Below are positions 618 to 42,317 of a stretch of DNA of 42,432 bases, piece by piece. The notes beneath the pieces were generated by a model. That model searched no databases and was not told the origin of the DNA. It worked only from the letters and a program-made list of their open reading frames with translations. This stretch comes from an uncultured Holdemania sp. (GTDB lineage: Bacteria; Bacillota_I; Bacilli_A; Erysipelotrichales; Erysipelotrichaceae): positions 1-42,432 of the forward strand of contig CAMQTJ010000012.1 in the NCBI GenBank assembly GCA_947037125.1, given 5' to 3'. The position numbers were made by a program, and so were the translations under genes. Within the stretch, counting starts at the first letter, position 1. The number at the start of each line of letters is the position of its first letter.

Positions 618-725
618 ATAAGAAATATAATAATTCTTATAAGTATGAATGCAAACCCCTAATGTAATTCATGCATATTCTATCCCTTATAAATATAAAA
701 TAAAAAAAGCCAAACGGCTTTTTTT
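618..725 (+). ncRNA. Repeated small RNA, copy 1
   Basis: This is a putative small RNA of about 108 nt and is the most diverged of three copies. Its 5' hairpin is a 13-bp perfect inverted repeat (612-624 with 634-646) that partly overlaps the -10 element. Hairpin two is ATGAAT (645-650) with ATTCAT (667-672) around the loop GCAAACCCCTAATGTA. A pyrimidine stretch TATCCCTTAT (681-690) follows, then a rho-independent terminator: seven A, GCC, AAAC, GGC, seven T (702-725). The core ATGAATGCAAACCCCTAATG is identical in all copies, while stem bases change in pairs. It converges on the reverse-strand gene ending at 809, and its terminator can serve both strands. Function is inferred only: C-rich loops in Firmicutes sRNAs such as LhrC and RsaE pair with Shine-Dalgarno regions. 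Confidence 0.65.
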
Positions 726-808
726 ATTTTATGTCATGATTATGTTTTAAAGAAACTTAAGATAAATGAATGTGATTAATTTTAAACAATGAATAAATTG
801 GATATAAT

Positions 809-1018
809 TTATTCAACTACTGAAATTATTTTTAATATAAATTCTTCAATTGTTGGTTTTTTATTTCCAAATAACTTAATAAAGTTATTTTTGATTTCTT
901 TATCATCGTTTAAATAAGCAATATCAATAGACTTTTGAATTTCAATACGAACATTATCAATTGTAGTGTTTTTTTGAATTGCGACTTGTTTAAGTAATAT
1001 ATTAATATCAAATTTCAT
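809..1018 (-). CDS. Small protein resembling 'Spo0A C-terminal domain' family proteins
   Basis: A 69-residue soluble protein. The pattern VRxEIQxxIDxAY (23-35), an acidic stretch, and GNKKPTIEEFI (51-61) match a family of short Firmicutes proteins often annotated as Spo0A C-terminal-domain proteins, whose real role is not established. A GAGGAT ribosome-binding site precedes the ATG. The gene is divergent from the XRE gene starting at 1145, with a shared 126-nt intergenic region that could carry back-to-back promoters, so the XRE protein may regulate it. It is much shorter than true Spo0A and lacks a receiver domain. Confidence 0.5.
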   Translation of the reverse strand: MKFDINILLKQVAIQKNTTIDNVRIEIQKSIDIAYLNDDKEIKNNFIKLFGNKKPTIEEFILKIISVVE

Positions 1019-1077
1019 AATAAATCCTCATATTCTAGAATAAAGGTATAAAAAGCTATAACAAGTAAATAATACAC

Positions 1078-1138
1078 CTGATAAGGTTTTGAGTCAACAC
1101 ATCTAATAAGGTTTAGTATATTGTTGAGTCTAGAGGTG
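1078..1138 (+). promoter_or_regulatory. Candidate promoter and direct-repeat operator of the XRE gene
   Basis: CTGATAAGGTTT (1078-1089) and CTAATAAGGTTT (1103-1114) form a 12-nt direct repeat with one mismatch, 25 bp apart. A TTGAGT -35 candidate (1089-1094) and a weak TAGTAT -10 lie across it. AGAGGTG (1132-1138) is the ribosome-binding site that selects the TTG start at 1145. The repeat may be an autoregulatory operator. Confidence 0.4.
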
Positions 1139-1144
1139 ATTAAA

Positions 1145-1354
1145 TTGTATTGTTATCCAAGATTGAAAGATTTAAGAGAAGATAATGACTTAACTCAAGC
1201 AAAGGTTGGCGAAATACTAGGGACAACGCAACAGCAATACTATAAATATGAAAAAGGAATTCAAGAAATACCTGTACATCATTTAATAACTATTGCGAAA
1301 GTTTATGAAGTTTCAGTTGATTATATAGTAGAAAAAAAAGTTAGAAAACAATGA
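1145..1354 (+). CDS. XRE-family HTH transcriptional regulator
   Basis: A 69-residue single-domain DNA-binding protein. The HTH_3 fold covers roughly residues 5-62, with RLKDLREDNDLTQAKVGEIL as helices 1-2 and TQQQYYKYEKG as the recognition region. The TTG at 1145 is chosen because AGAGGTG lies 6 nt upstream and because the protein then begins YCYPRLKDLRED, as in close relatives. An upstream in-frame TTG at 1121 has no ribosome-binding site. The gene sits between sRNA copies 1 and 2 and is divergent from the Spo0A-C-like gene, so it is a candidate local regulator. Nothing in the sequence proves its target. Confidence 0.85.
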   Translation: MYCYPRLKDLREDNDLTQAKVGEILGTTQQQYYKYEKGIQEIPVHHLITIAKVYEVSVDYIVEKKVRKQ

Positions 1355-1378
1355 AAATATTTTCAGCATAACTTAATA

Positions 1379-1422
1379 TCACATATTTAATCGATAAAAA
1401 AAATAAAATTTATTGTTATATT
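1379..1422 (+). promoter_or_regulatory. Promoter and upstream box of sRNA copy 2
   Basis: Box TCACATATTTAA (1379-1390) lies 26 nt before the -10 TATATT (1417-1422). The box begins 22 nt after the stop codon of the XRE gene. Confidence 0.5.
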
Positions 1423-1428
1423 AATAGT

Positions 1429-1528
1429 GTAAGAAAAATAATAGTCTTACACTCTATGAATGCAAACCCCTAATGTTATTCATAATTATTAAATCCCCTT
1501 ATAAATAAAAAAGCCTAAAGGCTTTTTT
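1429..1528 (+). ncRNA. Repeated small RNA, copy 2
   Basis: A putative small RNA of about 100 nt. Hairpin 1 pairs AGTGTAAGA (1426-1434) with TCTTACACT (1445-1453). Hairpin 2 pairs ATGAAT (1456-1461) with ATTCAT (1478-1483) and exposes CAAACCCCTAATG. A second C-rich stretch AAATCCCCTTAT follows (1491-1502), then a terminator of six A, GCCT, AA, AGGC, six T (1507-1528). Relative to copy 1, stem-1 A-T pairs are replaced by G-C pairs, which supports a folded RNA. The 5' loop AAAAATAATAG is shared with copy 3. There is no credible ORF apart from a conserved five-codon frame inside hairpin 2. Confidence 0.7.
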
Positions 1529-1589
1529 ATATTATTAATATTTCATGCAATCTGAAGTACATGATAATAATGATGAATTTAACATAATA

Positions 1590-1633
1590 TCACATAGTTA
1601 AAACACAAAAAAATTGAAAGTATTTGTTATAGT
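1590..1633 (+). promoter_or_regulatory. Promoter and upstream box of sRNA copy 3
   Basis: Box TCACATAGTTAA (1590-1601) lies 26 nt before the -10 TATAGT (1628-1633), matching the geometry of copies 1 and 2. Confidence 0.5.
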
Positions 1634-1639
1634 AAACGA

Positions 1640-1753
1640 GTAAGAAAAATAATAGTTCTTACATAGTATGAATGCAAACCCCTAATGTTATTCATACGAC
1701 TCCTCTTTCTTATAATATAGAAAACTAAAAAAAAAGCCAGAAGGCTTTTTTTT
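1640..1753 (+). ncRNA. Repeated small RNA, copy 3
   Basis: A putative small RNA of about 114 nt. Hairpin 1 pairs GTAAGAA (1640-1646) with TTCTTAC (1656-1662). Hairpin 2 pairs ATGAAT (1668-1673) with ATTCAT (1690-1695) around the same CAAACCCCTAATG loop. The following single strand is ACTCCTCTTTCTTATAA, which is complementary to strong Shine-Dalgarno sequences, so this copy may have its own target set. The terminator is nine A, GCC, AGAA, GGC, eight T (1727-1753). It overlaps the stop codon of the converging bactofilin gene and can terminate both strands. Confidence 0.7.
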
Positions 1754-17596: not shown

Positions 17597-18904
17597 ATGG
17601 AAAAAACTAAATTTTCATCAAAGTTTACATTTGTTTTAGCTGCTGTTGGATCGGCTGTGGGGATGGGTAATATCTGGATGTTCCCATATCGTGTTGGACA
17701 ATACGGTGGTGCGGCGTTTTTGTTGCCATATTTTTTGTTTGTGGCACTATTCGCCTATGTAGGTCTTTCTAGTGAGTTTGCATTTGGTAGATTAACGTCT
17801 ACAGGACCTGTTGGTTCATTTGATTTTGCATTTAAAGAAAAAGGTAAAAAACATGGAGCCATTGTTGGATGTATTCCTATGGTTGGTACTGTTGGGATTG
17901 CTATAGGTTATGCAGTAATTGTAGGTTGGGTTTTTAGGTATTTATTGGGTTCTATAGATGGAAGTATGTTCTTAGTGGAATCAGATATCTTTTTCTCACA
18001 AATTTCAAACTCTTTTGGTAGTATTCCTTTTCACTTAATTGCAATTGTGGCTACAATGCTTATCATTGGAAGTGGTGTTTTAAAAGGTATCGAAAAGATT
18101 TCAAAGTTTATGATGCCGACATTTTTTATATTGTTTTTAATTATAGCAATTAGAGTTGCGTTTTTGCCAGGTGCAATTGAAGGATATAAATATTTGTTCA
18201 TACCTAAATGGGAGTTTTTACTTAATCCAATGACATGGATTATGGCGATGGGGCAAGCGTTCTTTTCTCTATCGATTGCTGCATCTGGAATGATAATTTA
18301 TGGAAGTTATTTAAGTAAAAAAGAAGATGTTGTGAAATTATCAATAGTAACAGCAATTTTAGATACTTCTGCAGCACTTTTAGCTAGTTTTGTAATTATA
18401 CCTGCAATTTTTGCGTTTGGTATGGATCCGACAGCGGGGCCGAGTTTAATGTTTATAACAATGCCTAAAGTATTTGCTCAAATGCCTATGGGAGAATTGT
18501 TTGCTATTGTCTTTTTTACCTCAGTATTATTTGCAGGAATTACATCTTTAGTTAATATGCTAGAAGTGGCGAGTGAGGCTTGTATTACTCAACTTAATAT
18601 TAGTCGTAAAAAAGCAGTAATAATAATTGGTATTTTAACTTTTGGTGTTGGTATATTTATTGAAAATGTTGATGTGCTAGGTCTTTGGATGGATTTGGTT
18701 ACAATATATATTGTTCCGTTTGGTGCGTTATTAGGGGCGGTTGTTATTTTTTATATTTTGCCTAAAAATAAATTAATGTGTGAAATCAATTTAAATGCAA
18801 AAAAGGCTAAAGGTAACTTATATTATAATACAGGTAAATATATTTATGTTGCAATAACATTGATTGTTTTAATTTTAGGGATTATTTTAGGTGGTATTGG
18901 TTAG
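17597..18904 (+). CDS. Sodium-dependent transporter, NSS/SNF family
   Basis: A 435-residue membrane protein with about 11 helices. Helix 1 carries the NSS sodium-site signature VGSAVGMGNIWMFPYRVGQY (17-36), followed by GGAAFLLPY. The later FFSLSIAASGMIIYGSYL (helix 6 region) and FAGITSLVNMLE (helix 8) also belong to the family. These transporters import amino acids or similar compounds with Na+ (LeuT and MhsT are models); the substrate cannot be told from sequence. AAAGGGG is the ribosome-binding site. It is transcribed alone, between rplA and an MgtC gene. Confidence 0.93.
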   Translation: MEKTKFSSKFTFVLAAVGSAVGMGNIWMFPYRVGQYGGAAFLLPYFLFVALFAYVGLSSEFAFGRLTSTGPVGSFDFAFKEKGKKHGAIVGCIPMVGTVGIAIGYAVIVGWVFRYLLGSIDGSMFLVESDIFFSQISNSFGSIPFHLIAIVATMLIIGSGVLKGIEKISKFMMPTFFILFLIIAIRVAFLPGAIEGYKYLFIPKWEFLLNPMTWIMAMGQAFFSLSIAASGMIIYGSYLSKKEDVVKLSIVTAILDTSAALLASFVIIPAIFAFGMDPTAGPSLMFITMPKVFAQMPMGELFAIVFFTSVLFAGITSLVNMLEVASEACITQLNISRKKAVIIIGILTFGVGIFIENVDVLGLWMDLVTIYIVPFGALLGAVVIFYILPKNKLMCEINLNAKKAKGNLYYNTGKYIYVAITLIVLILGIILGGIG

Positions 18905-41680: not shown

Positions 41681-42317
41681 GTGTGCCAGGCATGGCATTT
41701 ATCTTACTTGTGTAAGTCCAGTGGCAGGAGCTACCATCCAAGCATAGGTAAGCGCAAGTTATTAACCGTACGGTTGATGATGAAGGAATCGTGAAACAAA
41801 ACTTTGAGCTAACGAACAGAAACTTAATAATAAGGCTATTAGGTGGATAAGGTGCCAGCTGATATCGAAGTCCAAAAGTGTAGACGTATAACCGAGGTAG
41901 TAAATCAAGTAGTTTAAAGTGAAAGAAAAATGTCTTACCCTGGCATATCCTATGTACACAAAATGTGGTCGAAAAATGTTTGTCATAGGAAGTCAGCCGA
42001 GGTCATATCAGGTTATAGCTAAAATAACTGAAGGACTGAACGTTATAAATCGTATCGATTTATGAAGTAAATGTAACTATATCAGAAAATTAGATATCTT
42101 TAGTAATTGAGAACGTAATTCAAAATGAAGAAGATTAGTACTAATGGGATAAAGGTTACATATCTATTAAATGAAAGATAGAGATGCAAGTATGAAATTA
42201 ATTGAAGAAATTCTAAGCAAAACTAATTTAAATTTAGCCTACAAGAAAGTCGTATCAAACAAAGGTGCTGAAGGTATTGATGGAGTAAGCGTTAGCGAAC
42301 TAAAAGAGTACATAAAG
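41681..42317 (+). mobile_element. 3'-truncated group II intron (class C-like)
   Basis: The 5' end GTGTGCCAGGCATGGC matches the GUGYG boundary and resembles the start of class C introns such as that of Oceanobacillus iheyensis. Later pieces also agree: AAGCGCAAG (about 41750) and AATAAGGCTATTAGGTGGAT (about 41831). AACAAAA (41795-41801) is complementary to the last seven exon bases TTTTGTT (41674-41680) and is a candidate EBS1-IBS1 pair. The 490 bases before the ORF would be domains I-IV. The RT/maturase ORF stops matching at about 42317, and domains V and VI are missing, so the element cannot splice or move unaided. Ordinary genes are absent from 41681-42170; a 74-codon reverse-strand frame there is not a gene. 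Confidence 0.8.

Follow-up and report, generated by a model that had tools for sequence, protein, structure and literature searches.

Near the start of the window (the whole stretch of DNA analysed here, 42,432 nucleotides) three similar non-coding units lie close together on the forward strand, which raises the question of what kind of RNA they encode, what switches them on and what they act upon. They had been described in an initial annotation as structured small RNAs, and each of the parts listed there was found in the sequence.

Three units and their promoters

Each unit begins with a 5′ hairpin, which is followed by a second hairpin (hairpin 2) whose loop is C-rich, by a C-rich linker that stays unpaired and by a terminator hairpin of its own. 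The core ATGAATGCAAACCCCTAATG, said to be invariant, has the same letters in all three copies and is closed by ATGAAT/ATTCAT, and stem 1 shows the reported pair swap, with A-T in copy 1 replaced by G-C in the other two. Copy 1 (618–728; covariance model match at 614–728, 112.6 bits) has a stem at 612–624/634–646, a CCCC loop at 656–659 within 644–673, the linker UUCUAUCCCUUAUAA at 678–692 and the terminator at 695–728. In copy 2 (1428–1531; match at 1425–1532, 94.0 bits) the 5′ hairpin is followed by a CCCC loop at 1467–1470, the linker AAAUCCCCUUAUAA with CCCC at 1495–1498 and the terminator at 1505–1530, while copy 3 (1640–1753; match at 1636–1755, 103.3 bits) has its 5′ hairpin, a CCCC loop at 1679–1682, the CU-rich linker CUCCUCUUUCUUAUAA and the terminator at 1728–1753. 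Measured from the predicted start sites the units are approximately 111, 104 and 114 nt long, in agreement with the lengths first proposed. Compared with 200 dinucleotide shuffles they are much more stable, with folding z scores of −7.1, −6.6 and −5.3.

The similarity between the copies extends to approximately 60 nt 5′ of the units, into a promoter block with a direct-repeat box that the initial annotation had missed. This conserved block, at 558, 1369 and 1580, shows 71–81% identity across 77 nt. The boxes, all on the forward strand, are TAACATAAAT-TCACACAGTT at 558–577 for copy 1, TAACTTAATA-TCACATATTT at 1369–1388 for copy 2 and TAACATAATA-TCACATAGTT at 1580–1599 for copy 3, with PWM scores of 20.2, 16.7 and 22.3, respectively. 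Downstream of these on the same strand are the −10 elements, TATAGT at 606–611 for copy 1, and extended −10 elements for copy 2 (TATATT, 1417–1422) and copy 3 (TATAGT, 1628–1633); none of the copies has a −35 element. The −10 positions would put transcription starts near 618, 1428 and 1640, and so the box at approximately −60 to −41.

On the other strand a bactofilin-like ORF (1752–2279), convergent to copy 3, ends within its terminator; a second bactofilin-like paralogue is found at L262:9139–9687 (+). Just past the array, also on the reverse strand, is a ClpP-type protease gene (2320–2889), perhaps a paralogue, the product of which reaches the cut-off for the general ClpP subfamily and misses that for the ClpP equivalog.

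A structured RNA family in 39 genera

Even with two mismatches allowed, the 18-mer core has no site in this genome other than the three in the window, and an exact search for the core in genome and viral collections gave no match beyond the genome itself. A covariance model built from the three window copies (R1), the check that the initial annotation had proposed, found both further copies and matches in related genomes when run on this genome and its relatives. Three additional copies are located at C74:10940–11061, C10:50320–50427 and C10:50526–50606, so that the three copies of the window are real but the description of a three-copy family was too narrow. Both of these contigs (L020 for C74, L021 for C10) end in or beside an sRNA copy, and the end of C74 carries part of one more. 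It would seem probable that the genome has at least seven copies and that the assembly is broken at the array.

With a second covariance model (R2, cut-off E ≤ 0.001) matches were obtained in 94 of 273 genomes of the bacterial family, representing 39 of 60 genera. None was seen in 43 other genomes of the order, and among 395 Bacilli genomes sampled from the class the matches were confined to the same family. This family is probably the Erysipelotrichaceae, because the named proteins most closely related to the candidate regulator discussed below are from Erysipelotrichaceae MAGs (71–84% identity). Tandem arrays of two or three members were present at 17 loci. In the sister family R1 gave matches (L011, L012 and L014) of identical layout but with the linker UUCCCUUCCCAAUU, and at L012 a box-like TCACATAATTAACAGTAATT is positioned upstream of the match.

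The covariation that the initial annotation anticipated in related genomes is almost absent from three sequences and overwhelming with 114 members. In the alignment of these members, which was fitted to the model and hence favours the structure, 96.0% of the paired cells hold standard pairs, and sliding the partner by one to three columns as a control lowers this to 44–54%. Cells in which both partners have changed number 809, against 203.7 in shuffles, and every pair of the three helices shows changes in both of its partners. From one genus to another the hairpin 2 stems can be entirely different in sequence and nevertheless pair. The units belong to a structured RNA family with conserved base pairing across approximately 39 genera.

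These comparisons also bear on two other ways of reading the units. The first is that they encode short peptides or are a mobile repeat, as might be suggested by the copy number and by a possible ATG frame (MQTPNVIH) common to copies 1–3. In relatives, though, the stems are rewritten throughout with compensation and the frame is not kept, the flanks and terminators vary, and no phage or plasmid match was found; both forms of this idea were rejected on the lost frame, the differing flanks and the missing phage or plasmid match, and are very improbable. The second is that they are cis-acting leaders or attenuators of the gene that follows. The next ORF is indeed on the same strand for 62 members, but it is on the opposite strand for 44, the terminators are full, and copies 1 and 3 of the window precede convergent ORFs. 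A role as leader, largely refuted by the orientation of these ORFs, is hardly to be credited. It would appear instead that every unit is an independent gene for one trans-acting antisense sRNA.

The promoter box and its candidate regulator

Over the relatives the consensus of the box is TCACATAATT-TCACATAATT, a direct repeat with a 10-bp period at approximately −60 to −41. It is located 56–58 nt ahead of the model start in 96 of the 114 members, and in 107 a consensus-like −10 element lies within the 16 nt that precede that start. The family is an RNA of approximately 105–120 nt bounded by a conserved promoter, with the direct-repeat box and the −10 element and no −35 element, and by a terminator. 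The highest-scoring box matches in 847 kb of this genome are mostly those of the sRNA genes themselves. This arrangement argues fairly strongly for a weak core promoter that would be turned on by an activator at the 10-bp direct repeat.

Searching relatives for the box brought up more terminator-ended C-rich RNAs that are too divergent for the model. At five loci in other genera (L125, L128, L135, L138 and L139) the box precedes terminator-ended C/U-rich RNAs, with CUUCCUUCCUUG as an example, that are absent from the R2 matches there and are likely to be divergent members. In the sister family a terminator-ended RNA (L121:1501–1700 (+) and L122 (−)) lies behind the same promoter box and carries four UUCCCAA motifs; in the folded RNA two of these are in hairpin 1, one is in the loop of hairpin 2 and one in the terminator loop. 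This RNA would represent a parallel type of sRNA.

The same search also led to one gene for an OmpR-family response regulator (L140), of which 52 of 58 genomes of the family have a single orthologue. In this genome it is encoded at C3:65987–66643 with a histidine kinase gene adjoining, and it shares 66% identity with the protein of Faecalibacillus, which probably belongs to the sister family. The box precedes the regulator gene, with scores of 20.5 and 18.8, in both genomes examined from the sister family; of these two only Faecalibacillus is an independent test, since it was the other genome that first led the box search to the gene. Among 30 loci of the family itself a box lies within 110 bp of the regulator gene at three, where approximately 0.1 would be expected from a background of about three matches per 100 kb. 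The presence of the box ahead of its gene in some genomes is suggestive of this regulator, with its sensor kinase, as the best candidate for the activator. The link is not proven, because a scan of the regulator operon in this genome found no box.

That the sRNA genes are real and the box is bound by a different regulator has a considerable probability, if somewhat below one half. The operon without a box in this genome and the small number of family loci with one are in its favour, as are the approximately 15 paralogous response regulators that the genome contains; the high-scoring box before the gene in both sister-family genomes, together with the near universality of the proposed regulator in the family, speaks for the OmpR-family protein. 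The CssR octamer was also followed as a lead from the literature, and nothing usable came of it.

Probable antisense pairing, related systems and implications

The linker UUCUAUCCCCUUA is conserved at 1.3–1.9 bits per position over 13 nt in 113 members and its motif is present in nearly all. A C-rich motif is found within the hairpin 2 region in 113 of the 114 members, and CCC in the terminator region in 80. The C-tracts are mostly unpaired (252 of 284) and GGG is absent from 98 of 113 members, which bears out the likeness to LhrC and RsaE that was first noticed in the C-rich loops. Unpaired C-rich motifs with complementarity to the Shine-Dalgarno sequence are in this way carried by an independent terminator-ended RNA. 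Taken together with the avoidance of G and the Shine-Dalgarno complementarity, the unpaired C-tracts point to an antisense action. We consider it probable that these are trans-acting sRNAs that a response regulator activates and that block Shine-Dalgarno sequences through their UCCCC motifs. The 5′ hairpin would protect the RNA and keep the active parts single-stranded, and the C-rich loop of hairpin 2 and the linker UUCUAUCCCCUUAUAA would pair with G-rich Shine-Dalgarno sequences so that the start of translation is blocked. In most members a further C-tract, within or close to the terminator loop, may pair as well, and several copies may provide dose and slightly differing ranges of targets.

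The conservation of 13 linker positions exceeds what a short seed needs, and the loop AAUAAUAG of the 5′ hairpin recurs in several genera. Both could be explained if the RNAs mainly bound a protein or small molecule, acting as a sponge, a decoy or a 6S-like RNA; a protein would then bind the C-rich linker, which would not be an antisense seed. This is improbable, since the positions of the C-tracts, in loops, in the linker and often in the terminator region, are those seen in known antisense sRNAs, and the avoidance of G and the complementarity to Shine-Dalgarno sequences fit pairing.

With antisense pairing as the preferred reading, candidate targets were sought. For linker fragments, sites at ≤ −14 kcal/mol were more numerous in translation-initiation regions than in coding controls (24 against 7, 18 against 3, 69 against 15 and 38 against 5), while the hairpin 2 loop alone showed little preference (17 against 12 and 23 against 17); pairing of a C-rich RNA to Shine-Dalgarno regions is partly trivial. 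The best predicted targets, named by eye from the N-terminal sequence, are a potA-like ABC ATPase, oppD, livH, a Na+-dependent transporter (window position 17597) and metN. In the case of oppD a long unbroken duplex is predicted with the loop of the C10 and C74 copies. A search of the genome for 10-nt sequences perfectly complementary to the linker (TAAGGGGATA) gave sites mostly distant from start codons, and so no single conserved target.

Among genes with GGGG ahead of the start codon, those for membrane, ABC or lipoproteins are more frequent (24 of 48, 50%) than among the others (179 of 706, 25%; p = 6e-4). In G068 the bias is a trend only (p 0.058), in G198 it is absent, and in the control genome G037 it is absent for the same motif and a similar bias is given by a different motif, GGAG, so that such associations can arise otherwise. 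With replicates and control mixed, the bias is not accepted as shown. A skew of the targets towards transporters, observed in this genome and not firmly replicated, is a hypothesis, in which the uptake systems opp, liv, met, the potA-like transporter and the Na+ symporter would tentatively be the enriched targets.

The family appears to be undescribed, as the initial annotation had suspected. At gathering score Rfam gave no sRNA match in the window, only pieces of a group II intron far away, and none for 20 loci, nearly all of them from relatives. These intron pieces, domains RF02001 and RF01998, are at 41762–42036 (+), at the window end and adjoining the ribosomal protein operon. The Rfam family of LhrC was likewise without a gathering-score match in the window and the 20 loci. 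LhrC1–5 of Listeria are LisRK-dependent, multi-copy RNAs of 111–114 nt that are poor in G (PMC4132741); the new family is likewise multi-copy, of comparable length and poor in G. They have a response-regulator element upstream of −53, comparable in position to the direct-repeat box, to which the candidate regulator would bind, and UCCC motifs in the hairpin loop, a single-stranded stretch and the terminator loop, a placement also seen here (PMC4132741). LhrC acts by blocking the Shine-Dalgarno sequence, as the new RNAs would, and has two stem-loops per RNA (PMC4132741); the new family differs in its additional 5′ hairpin, its distinct linker motif, its taxon, and its candidate regulator and predicted targets.

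The CiaR-dependent csRNAs of streptococci (RF02379; PMC8186281) also have several related copies per genome, a direct repeat for a response regulator and a C-rich loop and linker. RF02379, with a gathering score of 57 bits, is the best Rfam match below threshold; it aligns end to end at L037 with 34.4 bits, which would allow a remote common descent, and scores 22.3 bits in the window. Unlike the new family the csRNA model has no 5′ hairpin, and the exact CiaR repeat TTTAAG-N5-TTTAAG was found in none of the promoters of the 114 members. RoxS/RsaE (RF01820; PMC4409812) has comparable parts in its C-rich regions, a ResD-type site at approximately −65 and an extended −10 element, but differs in the sequence of the box and in that the new family is multi-copy; its score was 17–22 bits against a gathering score of 79. 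In plan the family resembles LhrC, csRNA and RoxS/RsaE, and membership in any of them is not shown.

The sRNA family is new in that it is in neither Rfam nor the literature searched. According to these sources no sRNA regulation is known in this large family of gut bacteria, a survey of non-coding RNAs in 50 genomes that mentions Erysipelotrichaceae reporting only the unrelated idnO motif there. The sRNAs, found in approximately two thirds of the sampled genera, come with a promoter box of their own and a two-component system as candidate regulator, and provide a ready entry point. It is possible, though rather doubtful, that they belong to an order-wide circuit in which a near-universal OmpR-type two-component system of the Erysipelotrichales would drive fast-evolving multi-copy C-rich sRNAs, of the UCCCC type here and UUCCCAA in the sister family, as a Gram-positive counterpart of GcvB that lowers nutrient-uptake transporters. 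With the new family the C-rich, response-regulator-driven, multi-copy design of Listeria and streptococci extends to a third lineage, so that convergence can be tested against deep homology.
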